Part shown: positions 4,514-11,295 of the stretch, in pieces
Numbering within the stretch: position 1 is the stretch's first letter
Layout of the letters: the number at the start of each line of letters is the position of its first letter
Source: Gaiella occulta
GTDB taxonomy: Bacteria; Actinomycetota; Thermoleophilia; Gaiellales; Gaiellaceae
Length of the DNA: 64,000 nt
Assembly: GCF_003351045.1 (NCBI RefSeq)
Contig: NZ_QQZY01000001.1
Location: 62,001 to 126,000, forward strand
Reading direction: 5' to 3'
Program-made: the position numbers and the translations under genes
Notes under the pieces: generated by a model
The model's database searches: none
Seen by the model: only the letters and a program-made list of their open reading frames with translations
Told to the model about the DNA's origin: nothing

Positions 4514-5902
4514 TCAGCCGGCCACGGGCGCCGCCGACACGGCGGCGGGCGCGGCGGGCGCCGCCGCGACCATGTGGCCGTGGCGCTCGGTGCCGTAGCC
4601 CCCGGGAACCGGGATGTAGAACTCGGGGTACCCCCACATGCCGTGCTCGGACACGTCCAGGCCGGCCTCCTCGACCTCGGGCTCGGCGCGGATGCCGACG
4701 GTCACCTTGAAGAGCAGGAGGACGAGGAACGAGGCCGTGAACGTGAACGCGCCCACGGCGGCGAGGCCCAGCGCCTGGGTGCCGAGCTGGCCGAAGCCGC
4801 CGCCGTAGAAGAGCCCGCCTCTGCCGGTTGCGAGCTTCTCCGCGAGGCTCGGCACGGTCAGGAACCCGAGCGACAGGGTGCCCCACACGCCCGCCATGCC
4901 GTGCGCGGCGATCGCTCCGATCGGGTCGTCGATGCCGGCCCTGTCGACGAGCAGAACGCCGAGCACGACGATCACGCCCGCCACGAAGCCGATCAGGATC
5001 GCAGCCCACGGGGCCACGAACGCGCAGGCGGCGGTGATCGCCACGAGCGCCCCGATGGCGCCGTTCAGCATCATCGAGAGATCGGGCTTCTTGATCACGA
5101 GCCACGACGTCGCGACCGCTCCGAGCACGCCCGCCGCGGCCGCGAGGTTCGTGTTGAGCGCGACGTAGGCGAAGAAGCCCACGCCGCCGAAGTCGACGCC
5201 GAGCGTCGAGCCCGGGTTGAAGCCGAACCAGCCGAACCAGAGGATCAGCACGCCGAGCGTCGTGAACGCCATGTTGTGGCCCGGGATCGCGTTCGACTTG
5301 CCGTCCGCGCCGCGCTTGCCGATGCGCGGCCCGAGCAGGATCGCGCCGGCGAGCCCGGCGAGCGCACCCTGGTAGTGCACGACGGTCGAGCCCGCGAAGT
5401 CCTGCATCCCCTTCGCGAACAGCCAGCCGTCGGGGCTCCAGATCCAGTGCGAGACGAGCGCGTAGATGAGCGTGAAGACGACGCCGAAGGCGAAGTACAC
5501 CCACAGGCGCGTGCGCTCGGCCATCGCGCCCCAGACGATCGCGAGGGAGACACCGGCGAACCCCACCTCGAACAGGTACGCCGCGGCGCCGGGGATCTGC
5601 CCGAACCACGAGAACGGCTCCTTGCCGATGGCGAGGAGATCCTCGACGGCGGGGAAGAACCCCGAGCCGCCGACGATGCCGTTGCCGCCGTCGCCGAAGG
5701 CCATCCCGAAGCCGACCATGTAGTAGACGAGCGACGCGATCGCGAAGATGAGCACGTTCTTCGCGGCGATGTGGCCGACGTTCTTCATGCGCGTCAGGCC
5801 TGCCTCGAGGAAGGCGAAGCCGGCCTGCATGAAGATCACGAGCACGGCCGCGACGACGACCCAGATCGTGCTCGCCGCATACAAGAGCTCCTTGCCGCTC
5901 AT
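4514..5902 (-). CDS. amt: Amt, ammonium transporter
   Basis: Polytopic Amt/MEP/Rh channel of 462 aa for ammonium uptake across the cytoplasmic membrane. It has the family N-terminus (FMQAGFAFLEAGLTRMKN), the FNPGSTL segment, and the two helices carrying the pore twin histidines (VVHYQGALAGLAG and AAHGMAGVWGTL). The cytoplasmic tail ends in an Ala/Pro-rich stretch. The start overlaps the glnB stop by ATGA, so PII and its target are co-translated, the classic glnK-amtB pairing in reversed order. Expression should follow the attenuated leader in front of glnB. Confidence 0.96.
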   Translation of the reverse strand: MSGKELLYAASTIWVVVAAVLVIFMQAGFAFLEAGLTRMKNVGHIAAKNVLIFAIASLVYYMVGFGMAFGDGGNGIVGGSGFFPAVEDLLAIGKEPFSWFGQIPGAAAYLFEVGFAGVSLAIVWGAMAERTRLWVYFAFGVVFTLIYALVSHWIWSPDGWLFAKGMQDFAGSTVVHYQGALAGLAGAILLGPRIGKRGADGKSNAIPGHNMAFTTLGVLILWFGWFGFNPGSTLGVDFGGVGFFAYVALNTNLAAAAGVLGAVATSWLVIKKPDLSMMLNGAIGALVAITAACAFVAPWAAILIGFVAGVIVVLGVLLVDRAGIDDPIGAIAAHGMAGVWGTLSLGFLTVPSLAEKLATGRGGLFYGGGFGQLGTQALGLAAVGAFTFTASFLVLLLFKVTVGIRAEPEVEEAGLDVSEHGMWGYPEFYIPVPGGYGTERHGHMVAAAPAAPAAVSAAPVAG

Positions 5903-6249
5903 ACCCGCTCCACCTCCTCGAGCTTCTGTCCCGTGCGGTTGTGGGTGACGTGGTAGACCGGCGCGGACCAGCAGATGCCGTCGCCGTTCTCGTGCCCGGT
6001 GCGGGCCGCGTCGACGATGGCGTGGATCACGCCCTCGGCGATCTCGTCGCGCACCACGAAGGTCATGTGGGCCTTCGGCAGGAAGCGCGACTCGAACACG
6101 CGCCCGCGGTACTCGTGTGTGATGCCCTTCTCGCGCCCGTGCCCGACGGCCTCGATCACCGTGACGCCGACGTGCCCCGTGTGCTCCTCGACGGCTTCCA
6201 TCACCGTCTCGACGCGGTCACGGACGACCACCGCCTCCACCTTCATCAT
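5899..6249 (-). CDS. glnB: PII nitrogen signal protein (GlnB/GlnK family)
   Basis: Small trimeric PII protein that senses ATP/ADP and 2-oxoglutarate and gates Amt. The start is set by AAGGAGG 6 nt upstream of tandem ATGs (6249 and 6246); an upstream in-frame extension runs through the leader terminator and is rejected. Counting from the second ATG, the T-loop has GHGREKG (35-41), Tyr46, and Phe51 where the modifiable Tyr51 of E. coli GlnB sits. Uridylylation or adenylylation at 51 therefore appears impossible. The B-loop (TGHENGDG) and C-terminal tail are present. It is co-transcribed with amt. Confidence 0.93.
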   Translation of the reverse strand: MMKVEAVVVRDRVETVMEAVEEHTGHVGVTVIEAVGHGREKGITHEYRGRVFESRFLPKAHMTFVVRDEIAEGVIHAIVDAARTGHENGDGICWSAPVYHVTHNRTGQKLEEVERV

Positions 6250-6274
6250 TGCCCGCCTCCTTGCTGGACCAACG

Positions 6275-6341
6275 AAAAAAGCCCCAGCGCTCCGGGGGAG
6301 CACTGAGGCGTCATTGCCGCCGGCGGGGCCGTCGTCGGCCC
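6275..6341 (-). promoter_or_regulatory. glnB-amt leader: two 6-nt-loop hairpins and an intrinsic terminator
   Basis: On the minus strand, hairpin P1 (6341-6326) is GGGCC/GGCCC around the loop GACGAC. Five nt later P2 (6320-6305) is GCGGC/GCCTC, with one C-U mismatch, around the loop AATGAC. The P2 3' arm is also the base of a 13-bp terminator stem (6309-6297 with 6293-6281, two G-U pairs, 3-nt loop), which is followed by six T (6280-6275). P2 and the terminator cannot coexist. The whole lies between the glnB promoter and RBS, so it can only act as an attenuator of this operon. The P2 loop has A1 and G4, matching the reported ANTAR-target hexaloop. The ANTAR link is inference. Confidence 0.78.
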
Positions 6342-6354
6342 TGCCAGACCCCCA

Positions 6355-6383
6355 AGGGTAGTCGGCGCGGGAGCGTGCCGCAA
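6355..6383 (-). promoter_or_regulatory. glnB-amt promoter
   Basis: Minus strand TTGCGG (6383-6378), 17-nt spacer, TACCCT (6360-6355). The predicted start near 6348 lies about 7 nt before the first leader hairpin. The glnA promoter has the same -35 core and spacing. Confidence 0.6.
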
Positions 6384-6408
6384 CCCCGACGGGAGCGCTC
6401 GCCCGGGC

Positions 6409-6591
6409 CGCGGGGCGCAGACGTCGCTCGAGGTGGGCGGCGATCCCGGTCTCCGGCAGGGCCGGTGCGAAGTAGGAGCCCTGCCCCGGCGTGCGGCCGC
6501 GTGCCCGCAGGACGCGCCCGTGGTCTCCCCGGTCGACGCGGTCGACGAACTGCTCCGGGATCTCGAGCGTGTCGGCGCCGGGCCGCCGGCT
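6409..6591 (-). pseudogene. Possible EAL-domain remnant
   Basis: Between the two gln promoters, the minus strand is open after a TAG at 6594-6592. It reads a segment including VLRARGRTPGQGSYFAPALP and then AAHLERRL. This resembles the C-terminal end of EAL phosphodiesterases (LRxLGCDxGQGYxFxRPLP). There is no start, and the catalytic EAL part is absent. I take it as the eroded 3' end of a c-di-GMP phosphodiesterase gene whose remains now separate the divergent promoters. Chance similarity in GC-rich spacer is possible. Confidence 0.3.
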
Positions 6592-6626
6592 CTATGAACG
6601 CGCGCGGGGCCGACAGACGGCTGGCG

Positions 6627-6655
6627 CTGCGGACGGCGATGCGCGATGCTAGGCT
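6627..6655 (+). promoter_or_regulatory. glnA promoter
   Basis: CTGCGG (6627-6632), 17-nt spacer, TAGGCT (6650-6655). The predicted start is near 6662, about 11 nt before the leader hairpin. Same -35 core and spacing as the divergent glnB promoter. Confidence 0.6.
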
Positions 6656-6672
6656 TTCGGCGCCGACGATGC

Positions 6673-6716
6673 GAGGCGACGTTGCCTCAGGCGCTGCATG
6701 CGCCTGGGGCTTTTTT
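6673..6716 (+). promoter_or_regulatory. glnA leader: 6-nt-loop hairpin competing with an intrinsic terminator
   Basis: GAGGC (6673-6677), loop GACGTT, GCCTC (6684-6688) form a perfect 5-bp hairpin. The same GCCTC begins the 11-bp terminator stem 6684-6694/6700-6710 (one G-U pair, loop TGCAT), which is followed by six T. The RBS GGGAGGAG lies 9 nt further on. Sixteen nt at the terminator end (TGGGGCTTTTTTCGTT) are identical to the glnB leader. Because it sits between promoter and RBS it must attenuate glnA. A first hairpin comparable to P1 of glnB is weak here (CGC/GCG with a 7-nt loop, 6661-6673). Confidence 0.78.
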
Positions 6717-6737
6717 CGTTTTCAGGGAGGAGAACAG

Positions 6738-8162
6738 ATGGCGAGACCACGGAGCAGCCAAGCCGCGACGCCGCGGCGCCCGGCCCAGGTGCAGAGCAAG
6801 GATCGGGCGACGTCGAGCGTCGCGGCTCGCCGGGCGGTGCTGAAGCGGATCAAGGACGAGGGCGTCGAGCACGTCCTCTTCTGGTTCACCGACCTCGAGG
6901 GCCACCTCAAGTCGTTCGCGATCACGCCGAACGAGATGGAGGGCGCGCTCGACGACGGCATGGGCTTCGACGGCTCGTCGATCACCGGCTTCAACCGGAT
7001 CGAGGAGTCGGACATGGTCGCCATCCCCGACCCGACCACGTTCCAGATCCTGCCCCGGCCCGTCGACGACCACGGCCACGAGCTGGGCGCCAAGGTGGGC
7101 CGCATGATCTGCGACGTCGTCAAGCCCGACGGGACCCCGTACGAGGGCGACCCGCGCTACCTGCTCAGGCTCGCCCTCGAGCGCATGAGGAAGGCGGGCT
7201 TCGACACGTTCAACGTCGGCCCCGAGCTCGAGTACTTCCTGTTCGAGGACGACAAGGGCACCGAGACGCTCGACGAGGGCGGCTACTTCGCGATGACGAC
7301 GCAGGACGCCGCCACCGAGGTGCGCAACGACACGATCCACGCGCTCGAGTCGGTCGGCATCCAGATCGAGTACCACCATCACGAGGTCGCGCCGTCGCAG
7401 CACGAGATCGACATGCGCTACGACGACGCGCTCGTGATGGCCGACAAGACGATGACGTACCGCATCGTCGTCAAGGAGGTCGCGGCGTGGCACGGCTACT
7501 ACGCGACCTTCATGCCGAAGCCGCTCTTCGGCGAGAACGGCTCCGGCATGCACACGCACATGTCGCTGTTCAAGGGTGGGCGCAACATGTTCTTCGACCC
7601 GAAGGACCCGCATCACCTGTCGAAGACGGCGAAGTCGTTCATCGCGGGCCTGCTCGTGCACGCGCGCGAGATGTCGGCCGTGCTGGCGCAGTGGGTCAAC
7701 TCGTACAAGCGGCTCGTGCCCGGCTACGAGGCCCCCGTCTACGTCGCCTGGTCGCAGCGCAACCGCTCCGCGCTCATCCGCATCCCGCTCTACAAGCCGG
7801 GCTCGGAACAGGCGACCCGTGCCGAGATCCGCTGCCCGGACCCCGCCTGCAACCCGTACCTCGCCTTCGCGGCGCTGCTCCACGCCGGCCTCGAGGGGAT
7901 CGAGAAGGGCTACGAACTGCCCGACGAGATGACGACGAACCTCTACCGGCTGTCGGCGGAGGAGCGCAAGCAGCGCGGCATCGTCGCGCTGCCCGGCTCG
8001 CTCGGAGAGGCGGTCGAGGAGCTCGCGGGCTCCGAGTTGATGAGGAAGGCGCTCGGCGAGCACATCTTCCCGCGCTACGTCGAGCTCAAGCGCAAGGAGT
8101 GGGACGAGTACCGGACGCAGGTGACGCAGTGGGAGAAGGACCGCTATCTCGCGGCGCTGTAG
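6738..8162 (+). CDS. glnA: GlnA, glutamine synthetase type I
   Basis: Condenses ammonium and glutamate to glutamine with ATP; a cytoplasmic dodecamer. The 474-aa protein has FDGSSITGFNRIEESDM (beta-grasp), GPELEYFLF and the metal-site HHHEVAPSQHEIDMRY, the ATP-binding KPLFGENGSGMHTHMS, and NRSALIRIP. The adenylylation-loop region reads TTNLYRLSAEERKQRG, keeping a Tyr, followed by LPGSLGEAVEEL as in GSI-alpha enzymes. About 35 basic, Ala/Ser-rich residues precede the usual N-terminus (near RRAVLKRIKDEGVEHV). RBS GGGAGGAG at 6725-6732 fixes the ATG. It is divergent from glnB-amt, with a shared leader design. Confidence 0.96.
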   Translation: MARPRSSQAATPRRPAQVQSKDRATSSVAARRAVLKRIKDEGVEHVLFWFTDLEGHLKSFAITPNEMEGALDDGMGFDGSSITGFNRIEESDMVAIPDPTTFQILPRPVDDHGHELGAKVGRMICDVVKPDGTPYEGDPRYLLRLALERMRKAGFDTFNVGPELEYFLFEDDKGTETLDEGGYFAMTTQDAATEVRNDTIHALESVGIQIEYHHHEVAPSQHEIDMRYDDALVMADKTMTYRIVVKEVAAWHGYYATFMPKPLFGENGSGMHTHMSLFKGGRNMFFDPKDPHHLSKTAKSFIAGLLVHAREMSAVLAQWVNSYKRLVPGYEAPVYVAWSQRNRSALIRIPLYKPGSEQATRAEIRCPDPACNPYLAFAALLHAGLEGIEKGYELPDEMTTNLYRLSAEERKQRGIVALPGSLGEAVEELAGSELMRKALGEHIFPRYVELKRKEWDEYRTQVTQWEKDRYLAAL

Positions 8163-8832: not shown

Positions 8833-9306
8833 GTGCTGACCGTGCTGCGCATCGTGCACCTGCTCTCCGCCACCGTGTGGGTCGGTGGCACGATCGCGCT
8901 CGTCTTCGTCGGCGTGCCTGCGATCCGCGACCTCGAGGGCGAGGCGCGTGCCGCCGCGATGCGGGCGCTCGGTCGGCGCTGGCGTCCGCTCGGGTGGAGC
9001 GCGATGGGCGTCGCGATCGTCTCCGGTCTCTGGCTGACGGACATCCACGGCGGCTTCAACCGCGCCGCGCTCGCGACCGACTTCGACCGCACGCTGATTC
9101 TCAAGTCGGCGCTCGTCGCCCTGCTCTGCGCGGGCGCCGCCGTCCACGACTACGTGCTCGGCCCGCGGCTGCAGCGGGAGCTGCGCGAGGGCGCGCCGCA
9201 GGCGCCGTCGACGCGCCGGCGGCTCGTCGCCGTCGGCTGGGTGAACCTCTCGCTCACGCTCGCCGTGCCCGTGCTCGGCGCGATCGTGCTCACGTACCTC
9301 GATTGA
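8833..9306 (+). CDS. CopD-domain membrane protein
   Basis: A 157-aa integral membrane protein with four hydrophobic helices, beginning VLRIVHLLSATVWVGGTIAL, the H-x-x-x-x-x-x-W-V-G-G signature of the CopD/DUF2269-type superfamily. Further helices are near WSAMGVAIVSGLWL, LILKSALVALLCAGAAV and VNLSLTLAVPVLGAIVL. A role in copper or redox homeostasis is only suggested by the family name. The GTG start sits 6 nt behind a -10 box. Its stop overlaps the kinase ATG by one base, so it is probably the first gene of the kinase/ANTAR operon and could be a membrane partner of that system (inference). Confidence 0.75.
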   Translation: MLTVLRIVHLLSATVWVGGTIALVFVGVPAIRDLEGEARAAAMRALGRRWRPLGWSAMGVAIVSGLWLTDIHGGFNRAALATDFDRTLILKSALVALLCAGAAVHDYVLGPRLQRELREGAPQAPSTRRRLVAVGWVNLSLTLAVPVLGAIVLTYLD

Positions 9307-10715
9307 TGGACGACGCAGCCCGCCACCTGGCGCTGCTCACGAAGACGACGGAGGTCGTGAACTCGTCGCTCGACCTGCAGGAGGTGATGGAGGCGATCGC
9401 GCACGAGACGGCGGCGGCGCTCGAGACGGACGCGTGCTTCGTCTACCTGTACGACGAGCGCGCCGACGAGCTCGTGCTCCGCGCGACGCACGGCACGCGT
9501 GTCGAGGATGCGACGAAGGCGCCGCGCATGCGCCGCGGCGAGGGCATCACGGGTGTCGCGGCCGCGCAGGGGGAGCCGGTGATGATCCCCTCGAAGGCTC
9601 ATCTCGACCCGCGTTTCAAGGCGTTCCCGAACCTGCGCGAGGACGACTACGAGTCGATCCTGGCCGTTCCGATCCTCGCCCGCGACAAGCTCGAGGGTGC
9701 CCTCAACGTGCGCACGCGCGAGCCGCGGATGTTCAGCGAGGCGGAGATCGAGCTCGTCGTCGCGATCGCCTCCCAGGTCGCACGAACGATCGAGCACGCG
9801 AAGCTCTACGCGCAGGCGCAGCGCCGGGTCCACGAGCTCGAGGCGCTCGCGCGCATCTCCGAGGCCGTCTCCGAGTCGCTCTACCTGGAGGAGTCGCTCG
9901 AGGCGATCGTGAAGACGACCGTCGAGTCGATGCAGGCGACCGGCGCCGCGATCGTGCTCGAGGACGGTCGCGTCGCCTGGCCCGAGGGACGGGCCGGCGC
10001 GCACGCGCTGCGGCTGCCGCTGCGCTGGCGCGCGCGCACGATCGGCGAGCTCGTGGTCGACCGCGACACCCCGTTCAGCGACGACGACCGCCAGCTTCTG
10101 GAGGCGATCGCGAGCCAGGCCGCCGTCGCGCTCGAGCACGGCCGCATGGCGCTGCGAGGGGTGCTCGCCCAGGAGATCCACCACCGCGTCAAGAACAACC
10201 TGCAGACCGTCGCCTCGCTGCTGCGCCTGCAGGCGCGGTCGGAGCAGGTCGACGCGAGGAAGGCGCTCGCCGACTCGGTGAACCGGATCCTCGCGATCGC
10301 CGCCGTCCACGAGGTGCTGACCGAGCACCGCGAGGACGACGTCGACCTCGACGAGCTCGTCGACCGGCTGCGCGCGATGCTCGTGCAGGGCCTCGCAGTC
10401 GGCAAGGAGGTTCACGCCGAGCTCGAGCCGGTCTCCCTCGCCGGGCAGCGCGCCACGGCGCTCGCGCTCGTGTTCACCGAGCTGTTCGGCAACGCGCTCG
10501 AGCACGGCGGCGGCCGGATCTCGATTACTCTTACGGAACGCGACGGCGACGTCGTCCTCGCGATCGCCGACGACGGCGACGGCATGCAGCTGTCGGCCGA
10601 CGGCACGGGTCTCTCGATCGTCCGTGCGCTCGTCCGCGACGAGCTTGCCGGCGAGCTCCGGCTCGTCGACGATCCCGGTCTGCGTGCCGAGGTCACGTTT
10701 CCGGCGAGCGTGTGA
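9306..10715 (+). CDS. Sensor histidine kinase, GAF-GAF-HisKA_2-HATPase (PdtaS-like)
   Basis: A 469-aa soluble kinase. GAF 1 spans about 18-165. A second, shorter GAF is about 180-280 and lacks obvious cofactor cysteines. The HisKA_2 dimer/phosphotransfer box is QEIHHRVKNNLQ with phospho-His at 292/293, and a HATPase_c domain has ELFGNALEHGGG (N box) and ADDGDGM (G1). HisKA_2 kinases of this kind phosphorylate ANTAR regulators in actinobacteria (PdtaS/PdtaR of mycobacteria). It has no transmembrane segment, so the signal is likely cytosolic or comes through the upstream CopD-like protein. The ANTAR gene follows by 13 bp. Confidence 0.9.
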   Translation: MDDAARHLALLTKTTEVVNSSLDLQEVMEAIAHETAAALETDACFVYLYDERADELVLRATHGTRVEDATKAPRMRRGEGITGVAAAQGEPVMIPSKAHLDPRFKAFPNLREDDYESILAVPILARDKLEGALNVRTREPRMFSEAEIELVVAIASQVARTIEHAKLYAQAQRRVHELEALARISEAVSESLYLEESLEAIVKTTVESMQATGAAIVLEDGRVAWPEGRAGAHALRLPLRWRARTIGELVVDRDTPFSDDDRQLLEAIASQAAVALEHGRMALRGVLAQEIHHRVKNNLQTVASLLRLQARSEQVDARKALADSVNRILAIAAVHEVLTEHREDDVDLDELVDRLRAMLVQGLAVGKEVHAELEPVSLAGQRATALALVFTELFGNALEHGGGRISITLTERDGDVVLAIADDGDGMQLSADGTGLSIVRALVRDELAGELRLVDDPGLRAEVTFPASV

Positions 10716-10728
10716 CGAAAGGACGACG

Positions 10729-11295
10729 ATGCGAATCCTCATCGCGGAAGACGAGACGATCATCCGGCTGGATCTCCGGGCGCTGCTCGAGCAGGCCGGC
10801 TTCGAGGTGTGCGCGGAGGCGCGCGACGGGGAGGAGGCGGTCGCGCTCGCGGCAAGCAGCGAGCCCGACCTCGCGTTGCTCGACGTGAAGATGCCGAAAC
10901 TCGACGGGATCGACGCCGCGCGGCGGATCCTCGACGAGCGCCCGATCCCGATCGTGATGGTGACGGCGTACGGCGAGGAGGAGCTCGTCTCCCGGGCCGT
11001 CGAGGCCGGCGTCTTCGGCTACCTCGTGAAGCCGTTCCGGGAGACCGATCTGCTGCCCGCGATCGCCACCGCCCGCGCCCGCCACGAGGAGCTCGCGGCG
11101 CTGCGCGAGGAGGTGGACACGCTCGCCGAGGCGCTCGCCGCGCGCAAGGCGATCGAGCGGGCGAAGGGCCTGCTGATGGAGCGCGAGGGACTGACCGAGC
11201 AGGAGGCGTTCGCGCGCCTGCGCAAGGCGAGCCAGATCTCGGGGCGGCCGCTCAAGGTCGTCGCCGACGCGCTCGTGGCAACGCTCACGACGTGA
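10729..11295 (+). CDS. ANTAR-domain response regulator (RNA-binding antiterminator, PdtaR-like)
   Basis: A 188-aa regulator. The receiver domain (1-120) has acidic pocket E7/D8, phospho-acceptor Asp52 (LLDVKMPKLDG), the switch MVTAYGEE and Lys in YLVKPF. A coiled linker follows (about 120-138), then an ANTAR domain (about 128-186) with the family core AIERAKGLLM, EQEAFARLRKAS and LKVVADAL. ANTAR proteins bind paired hexaloop RNA hairpins and prevent formation of an overlapping terminator. It is the partner of the preceding kinase (RBS AAAGGA at 10718-10723). The two attenuated leaders at 6275-6341 and 6673-6716 are candidate targets. It ends overlapping the convergent DUF4349 gene by 11 bp. 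Confidence 0.92.
   Translation: MRILIAEDETIIRLDLRALLEQAGFEVCAEARDGEEAVALAASSEPDLALLDVKMPKLDGIDAARRILDERPIPIVMVTAYGEEELVSRAVEAGVFGYLVKPFRETDLLPAIATARARHEELAALREEVDTLAEALAARKAIERAKGLLMEREGLTEQEAFARLRKASQISGRPLKVVADALVATLTT

Follow-up and report, generated by a model that had tools for sequence, protein, structure and literature searches.

Introduction

Among the closest described systems is EutV, a REC-ANTAR response regulator with a partner histidine kinase; its targets, the eut leaders of Enterococcus faecalis, contain hairpins with loops of six nucleotides (nt; hexaloops) that carry a G at loop position 4 (G4), and the 3' arm of the second hairpin, P2, lies in an intrinsic terminator. In NasR/nasF and AmiR/amiE a hexaloop also stands upstream of a terminator, with a closing C-G pair and nitrogen-related target genes; NasR and AmiR are not kinase-phosphorylated receivers, and they sense nitrate or amides. 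Here we describe two leaders of this kind in a 64,000-nt stretch of Gaiella occulta DNA (contig NZ_QQZY01000001.1, positions 62,001 to 126,000; hereafter the window), upstream of the divergent operons glnB-amt (- strand) and glnA (+ strand). We put at about 0.92 the probability that both are transcription attenuators worked by the REC-ANTAR response regulator encoded in the window. The locus differs from the EutV targets in that glnA has one hexaloop, loop position 1 is often G, and the targets are glnA and glnB-amt rather than eut, and from NasR/nasF and AmiR/amiE, which involve one operon each.

EutV antitermination in vivo requires both hexaloops (PMC3369931; PMC8934654), even though the dimer engages only one of them at any moment (PMC8934654). 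The 2022 EutV-RNA structure paper, which gives one hexaloop as the minimal binding motif but two as needed in vivo, called for the study of single-hexaloop targets (PMC8934654). For NasR, binding to P2 by itself is seen only at about 12 uM (PMC7496416). Published ANTAR RNAs have the same loop, closing C-G pair and P2-terminator overlap as the leaders described here, and are common before genes for PII, the ammonium transporter and glutamine synthesis (PMC3369931; PMC7496416). The nitrogen regulons predicted for Desulfotomaculum and Pelobacter likewise include dual-hairpin RNAs, located ahead of genes for PII, the ammonium transporter and glutamine/glutamate synthesis, but belong to other phyla, and their hairpins are dual by search definition (PMC3369931). 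Nearer in lineage, PdtaS/PdtaR (Rv3220c/Rv1626) shares with the window's pair a cytosolic kinase and the actinobacterial phylum, and PdtaR is the closest solved relative of the window's regulator; actinobacterial ANTAR RNAs, however, mostly mask the start codon or the ribosome-binding site (RBS), and overlap with a terminator is uncommon among them (PMC8164766). The text of that study makes no mention of Thermoleophilia, and glnA appears in it a single time.

Hexaloop hairpins overlap intrinsic terminators in both nitrogen leaders

In both leaders the promoter is followed by a hairpin with a 6-nt loop, an intrinsic terminator that overlaps it, and the RBS (Table 1). A preliminary description of the sequence had reported matching promoters with 17-nt spacers, terminators with six T, a GCCTC motif common to the 3' arm of the hairpin and the base of the terminator, a segment shared exactly by the two leaders, and an additional GACGAC hexaloop hairpin upstream in the glnB leader; all of these were borne out. 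The shared segment is TGGGGCTTTTTTCGTT, and the terminators, of 13 and 11 pairs, are each followed by TTTTTTCGTT. Other parts of that description needed amendment. The 5-bp hairpin assigned to both leaders is present in glnA, where P2 has 5 pairs, but P2 of glnB has just 3 contiguous pairs (GGC/GCC) with bulged outer pairs. The leaders are "matched" in that both are hexaloop attenuators; glnB, however, has two ANTAR-type hexaloops and glnA one. The weak first hairpin proposed for glnA corresponds to a GACGAT remnant upstream of P2, which could not fold in the predicted transcript because that transcript would begin inside the remnant.

The two tandem hexaloop hairpins of the glnB leader, P1 and P2, are joined by a 5-nt linker, within the 2-25 nt that define dual-hexaloop ANTAR targets, and the 3' arm of P2 overlaps the terminator, as in such targets. 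The glnA leader lacks two tandem 6-nt-loop hairpins, and is classed here as similar in working to the dual-hexaloop targets but outside their family. We set aside the idea of a glnA leader peptide: an ATG at 6669 shares the reading frame of glnA across the leader, but no RBS precedes it and it adjoins the hairpin.

A scan of 3.5 kb independently recovered both leader terminators among four terminator-like sites, compared with 1.2 expected from shuffles. Such sites are thus easy to find in GC-rich DNA, and the pair might be ordinary shared terminators left over in a divergent intergenic region, with no regulatory alternative structure. We regard this as practically negligible: in dozens of species both terminators lie between their own gene's promoter and RBS with a conserved competing hairpin and loop, and conservation of the loop, which lies outside the terminator, already refutes it.

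Table 1. Features of the nitrogen locus, in window coordinates
Feature	Position	Strand	Basis
amt (ammonium transporter)	4514..5902	-	Pfam Ammonium_transp 1.3e-110; NCBIfam TIGR00836 above cut-off
glnB (PII protein)	5899..6249	-	Pfam P-II 5.9e-15
glnB RBS, AAGGAGG	6256..6262	-	direct reading
glnB intrinsic terminator, stem 6309-6281, T6 6280-6275	6275..6309	-	terminator scan; -24.2 kcal/mol
glnB P2 hexaloop hairpin, GCGGC-AATGAC-GCCTC (A1, G4); 3' arm is terminator base	6305..6320	-	direct reading
glnB P1 hexaloop hairpin, GGGCC-GACGAC-GGCCC (G1, G4)	6326..6341	-	RNAalifold recovers helix unprompted
glnB-amt promoter, -35 TTGCGG (6383-6378), 17 nt, -10 TACCCT (6360-6355)	6355..6383	-	direct reading
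glnA promoter, -35 CTGCGG (6627-6632), 17 nt, -10 TAGGCT (6650-6655)	6627..6655	+	direct reading
glnA single hexaloop P2, GAGGC-GACGTT-GCCTC (G1, A2, C3, G4)	6673..6688	+	pattern and locus comparison
glnA intrinsic terminator, stem 6684-6710, T6 6711-6716	6684..6716	+	terminator scan; -23.4 kcal/mol
glnA RBS, GGGAGGAG	6725..6732	+	direct reading
glnA (type I glutamine synthetase)	6738..8162	+	TIGR00653 536 bits, cut-off 429
Soluble sensor kinase, GAF-GAF-HisKA_2-HATPase_c; presumed partner kinase	9303..10715	+	domain search
REC-ANTAR response regulator; presumed antiterminator	about 10729..11295	+	Pfam ANTAR 1.3e-19

The hexaloop is conserved across relatives

We compared the leaders with 161 loci from relatives. 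Three alignments (A1-A3) were selected by pattern, such that the invariance of P2 in A1 and A3 is partly by construction; this pre-selection was countered by a search in which only AGGC and GCCT were fixed and the loop was unconstrained, and by running the covariance model on loci without a pattern match. Of 60 regions upstream of Gaiellaceae glnA, 46 contained the hairpin in the free-loop search, or 45 once L097, which is not a glnA leader, is removed. The leader of L138, which sits just inside the annotated match, was confirmed with the covariance model. Among the 37 six-nt loops from this search, A2, G4 and a purine at position 1 were each present in 36, and positions 5-6 varied, giving the consensus RAYGNN for glnA leaders; AGGC-N6-GCCT with an R..G hexaloop stands before glnA in most Gaiellaceae but occurred in 0.1% of shuffled upstream regions. 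The 19 glnA loci of other lineages yielded one pattern match, whose 10-nt loop does not resemble those of ANTAR targets. Since the loop lies outside the terminator, its conservation is most naturally explained by a binding partner.

RNAalifold, applied to 15 dual leaders, found P1 and the terminator unprompted. In 48 dual leaders aligned to a covariance model (alignment A4, fitted to the model and thus biased in its favour, with at least one weak and probably spurious match, L203 4867-4948), 93% of cells pair and double-sided changes affect 12 of 16 pairs; none of 500 shuffles reached the covariation score (0.476 versus 0.129). Covariation is strong in P1, where 4 of 5 pairs covary, and in the upper terminator. 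The P1 loop has 6 nt in 45 of the 48 matches. G4 is invariant in P1 hexaloops (45/45) and P2 loops (48/48) of dual leaders, and is present in both window leaders; the C-G pair that closes the loop is found in all distinct sequences (45/45 for P1, 46/46 for P2). A search of the leaders against Rfam gave weak matches only, with no family at its gathering score.

The three inner pairs of P2 never vary. Rare compensatory changes affect the outermost pair only, giving CAGGC/GCCTG (C-G, L201) and AAGGC/GCCTT (A-U, L202), and GAGGC replaces GGGGC in the terminator of seven loci, converting a U.G to a U-A pair. Near-invariance of P2 is expected from the need of GCCTC to pair both with GAGGC in the antiterminator and with G(G/A)GGC in the terminator. 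The preliminary description had offered covariation of the alternative stem as a test of attenuation; P1 and the upper terminator do covary, but with P2 nearly frozen the lack of covariation there is not decisive, and we set covariation aside as the sole test of P2 because its arm is shared with the terminator. The conserved loop, outside the terminator, is better evidence than P2 covariation.

A single ANTAR regulator is encoded beside glnA

Genes for a sensor kinase and a REC-ANTAR protein lie downstream of glnA, the latter about 4 kb from the leaders. This protein is the sole match to PF03861 (ANTAR) in a search of the genome, which is 98% complete. Its closest solved relatives are Rv1626/PdtaR (1s8n, 2.7e-50) and EutV (6wsh, 3.2e-36), and like proteins of the EutV/PdtaR type it combines REC and ANTAR domains with G4-contact residues. 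In EutV, the flipped-out G4 is held by Arg142, Lys149 and Glu160 and stacked on Tyr164 (PMC8934654); these residues align with R146, K153, E164 and F168 of the regulator (numbered by the translation from 10708). More broadly, the 6wsh alignment shows R142, K143, K149, E160, the aromatic residue at 164 and R168 to be kept, and contacts 172-177 to differ. The trans-acting factor for both leaders, which the preliminary description did not name, is most likely this regulator.

The order glnA-kinase-ANTAR recurs in most Gaiellaceae contigs of sufficient length; the kinase-ANTAR pair is not beside Solirubrobacterales glnA, and is in none of the other-lineage glnA contigs compared. The N-terminal GAF domain of the kinase (window 9303-9800) is most similar to that of PtsP/EI-Ntr, which in E. 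coli senses glutamine and 2-oxoglutarate. The kinase GAF may therefore be a glutamine or 2-oxoglutarate sensor, a lead and no more.

By default, polymerase leaving either promoter would make a leader in which GCCTC pairs with GGGGC and the terminator forms, with stops at 6275 (glnB) and 6716 (glnA). The computed energies at glnA, -23.4 kcal/mol for the terminator versus -7.5 for P2 alone, indicate that without help the terminator should win once made. On an inducing signal that the neighbouring GAF kinase would sense, probably nitrogen limitation, the regulator would be phosphorylated and dimerise, and the ANTAR domains of the dimer would hold P2. With P2 thus stabilised, GCCTC would stay paired with GAGGC, no terminator would form, and readthrough would switch on glnB-amt and glnA together; the glnB leader would use the classical P1 and P2 loops, and the glnA leader P2 alone. 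Computation gives the alternative structures, their conservation, the loop identity, the gene neighbourhood, the single ANTAR gene and the nitrogen regulon of this scheme; we infer the binding, phosphorylation, signal, direction of switching and sufficiency of one hexaloop, with EutV, NasR and AmiR as models for stabilisation of P2 and readthrough. Attenuation by mutually exclusive hairpin and terminator, with one trans-acting signal for uptake and synthesis, as proposed in the preliminary description, fits all the comparative evidence.

P2 folds ahead of the terminator, and given these energies it could delay the terminator unaided. The hexaloop hairpin might thus be no more than a kinetic antiterminator that responds to the speed of transcription or to a small molecule, with the ANTAR protein acting elsewhere; the Rfam result formally leaves room for a new RNA class. 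We consider such a ligand-sensing or protein-free attenuator very unlikely: the element spans some 55 nt and contains no conserved pocket, its conservation falls on loop positions 1-4, the set contacted by ANTAR proteins, whereas the flanks vary, and a dedicated ANTAR gene adjoins glnA.

Several observations weigh against control by the ANTAR regulator. The purine at loop position 1 is for the most part G in P1 (41/45) and glnA P2 (25/37), and mostly A in the P2 of glnB and GS2 leaders; the published position is A, conserved in just over 50% in the actinobacterial ANTAR RNA consensus (PMC8164766). P2 itself hardly covaries. The link to glnA is not universal, 15 of 60 Gaiellaceae glnA loci having no leader. 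One genome with strong leaders has no ANTAR match (G012; assembly 86% complete and fragmented), and in family f3 of the order, where kinase and regulator are again paired, glnA is of a different kind and carries no such leader.

Gaiellaceae glnA leaders carry a single hexaloop

Among glnB and GS2 leaders with P1, 10 of 15 have a strict hexaloop (1.6 in shuffles), and the remainder have a bulge or mismatch. No P1 hexaloop was found within 36 nt of P2 in 44 Gaiellaceae glnA leaders. Instead, a TAnnnT motif, usually similar to TAGACT, stands 8-17 nt ahead of P2 in every one of the 44, compared with a mean of 2.6 and a maximum of 12 in shuffles; the glnA -35 is not conserved across relatives, and a TA-rich -10 is present too in the relatives' dual leaders. 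A -10 in this position predicts a transcript start 1-10 nt before P2, leaving no room for P1. By contrast, each of the four glnA leaders that could be read in sister family f2 carries a hexaloop P1 (GACGGC, GACGAT, GACGGC, AACGGC). Retention of both hairpins there suggests that P1 was probably lost in Gaiellaceae, four genomes being a thin basis for polarity.

We favour, with moderate confidence, the view that Gaiellaceae glnA leaders are natural single-hexaloop antiterminators, in which an ANTAR dimer on P2 alone would prevent termination in vivo. The requirement of EutV for both loops and the NasR affinity for P2 alone (PMC3369931; PMC8934654; PMC7496416), together with the vestigial appearance of the P1 remnant in this genome, suggest instead that the regulator acts at glnB-amt only and that the glnA leader is a weakened relic with constitutive partial termination, a reading that falls within the ANTAR explanation and so overlaps with it in probability. 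We think this unlikely. Across 44 loci whose flanks otherwise do not align, conservation of the P2 loop and stem in glnA leaders is as strict as in dual leaders, whereas a relic would decay. Such decay is seen in G010 (92% complete, no ANTAR match), which keeps a degenerate glnA leader (L206 2000-2048, - strand) with loop GATAAG, without G4, and a broken T-run; as a single case of decay in the absence of an ANTAR match, this is suggestive.

The leader marks a predicted nitrogen regulon

In 61 relatives, a covariance model built from P2 and the terminator (R1) had 68 hits that scored 25 bits or more. Of these, 58 lie at most 900 nt upstream, on the same strand, of a glutamine synthetase (34), a second type I synthetase (12; for example L208 949-1035), glnB (9) or a gene for a receiver-only protein (3). 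Other hits precede amt alone. The same leader stands before a type II glutamine synthetase-glnB-amt operon (L207 2893-2978, - strand), and two tandem attenuators precede an ammonium transporter gene (L202 767-891, G016 contig 68). One full single-hexaloop leader with terminator has no obvious same-strand gene downstream (L140 3706-3770).

Three hits in the window's own genome are convincing: glnA, glnB and a receiver-only gene. The last has a dual leader (L193 1182-1265, G000 contig 3; P1 loop GTCGAA, P2 loop TTCGAG), and its product (1312-1812) resembles the ANTAR regulator's own receiver; the arrangement is repeated in G006 (L195) and G016 (L196). This protein may take part in feedback or act as a phosphate sink. 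When the dual model (R2) was run across the class, strong hits were confined to Gaiellales families f1 and f2, and three borderline hits elsewhere in the class (E about 4e-4 per genome) were treated as chance. A weak dual leader precedes a glycosyltransferase group 1 gene (L199 2086-2166, - strand).

Discussion

ANTAR antitermination of nitrogen genes is already known; as far as the literature shows, it is apparently new in Thermoleophilia. A literature search on Gaiella with ANTAR gave nothing on ANTAR proteins among the hits listed. What is new here is a terminator-coupled single-hexaloop glnA target beside a dual-hexaloop glnB target with the same presumed regulator.

If the single-hexaloop reading of glnA is true, it would contradict the two-hexaloop requirement established for EutV and set a lower size limit for a protein-controlled attenuator of about 55 nt from start to U-tract. 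One presumed regulator would govern dual and single versions side by side in dozens of species, and the sister family keeps the dual glnA form. The two-hexaloop question is thus directly testable, and the glnA switch can show how much of the dual structure is essential. For the organisms themselves, soil and freshwater actinobacteria of a little-studied lineage, the system is probably a master circuit for nitrogen assimilation whose regulator, kinase and targets are encoded within a single window.
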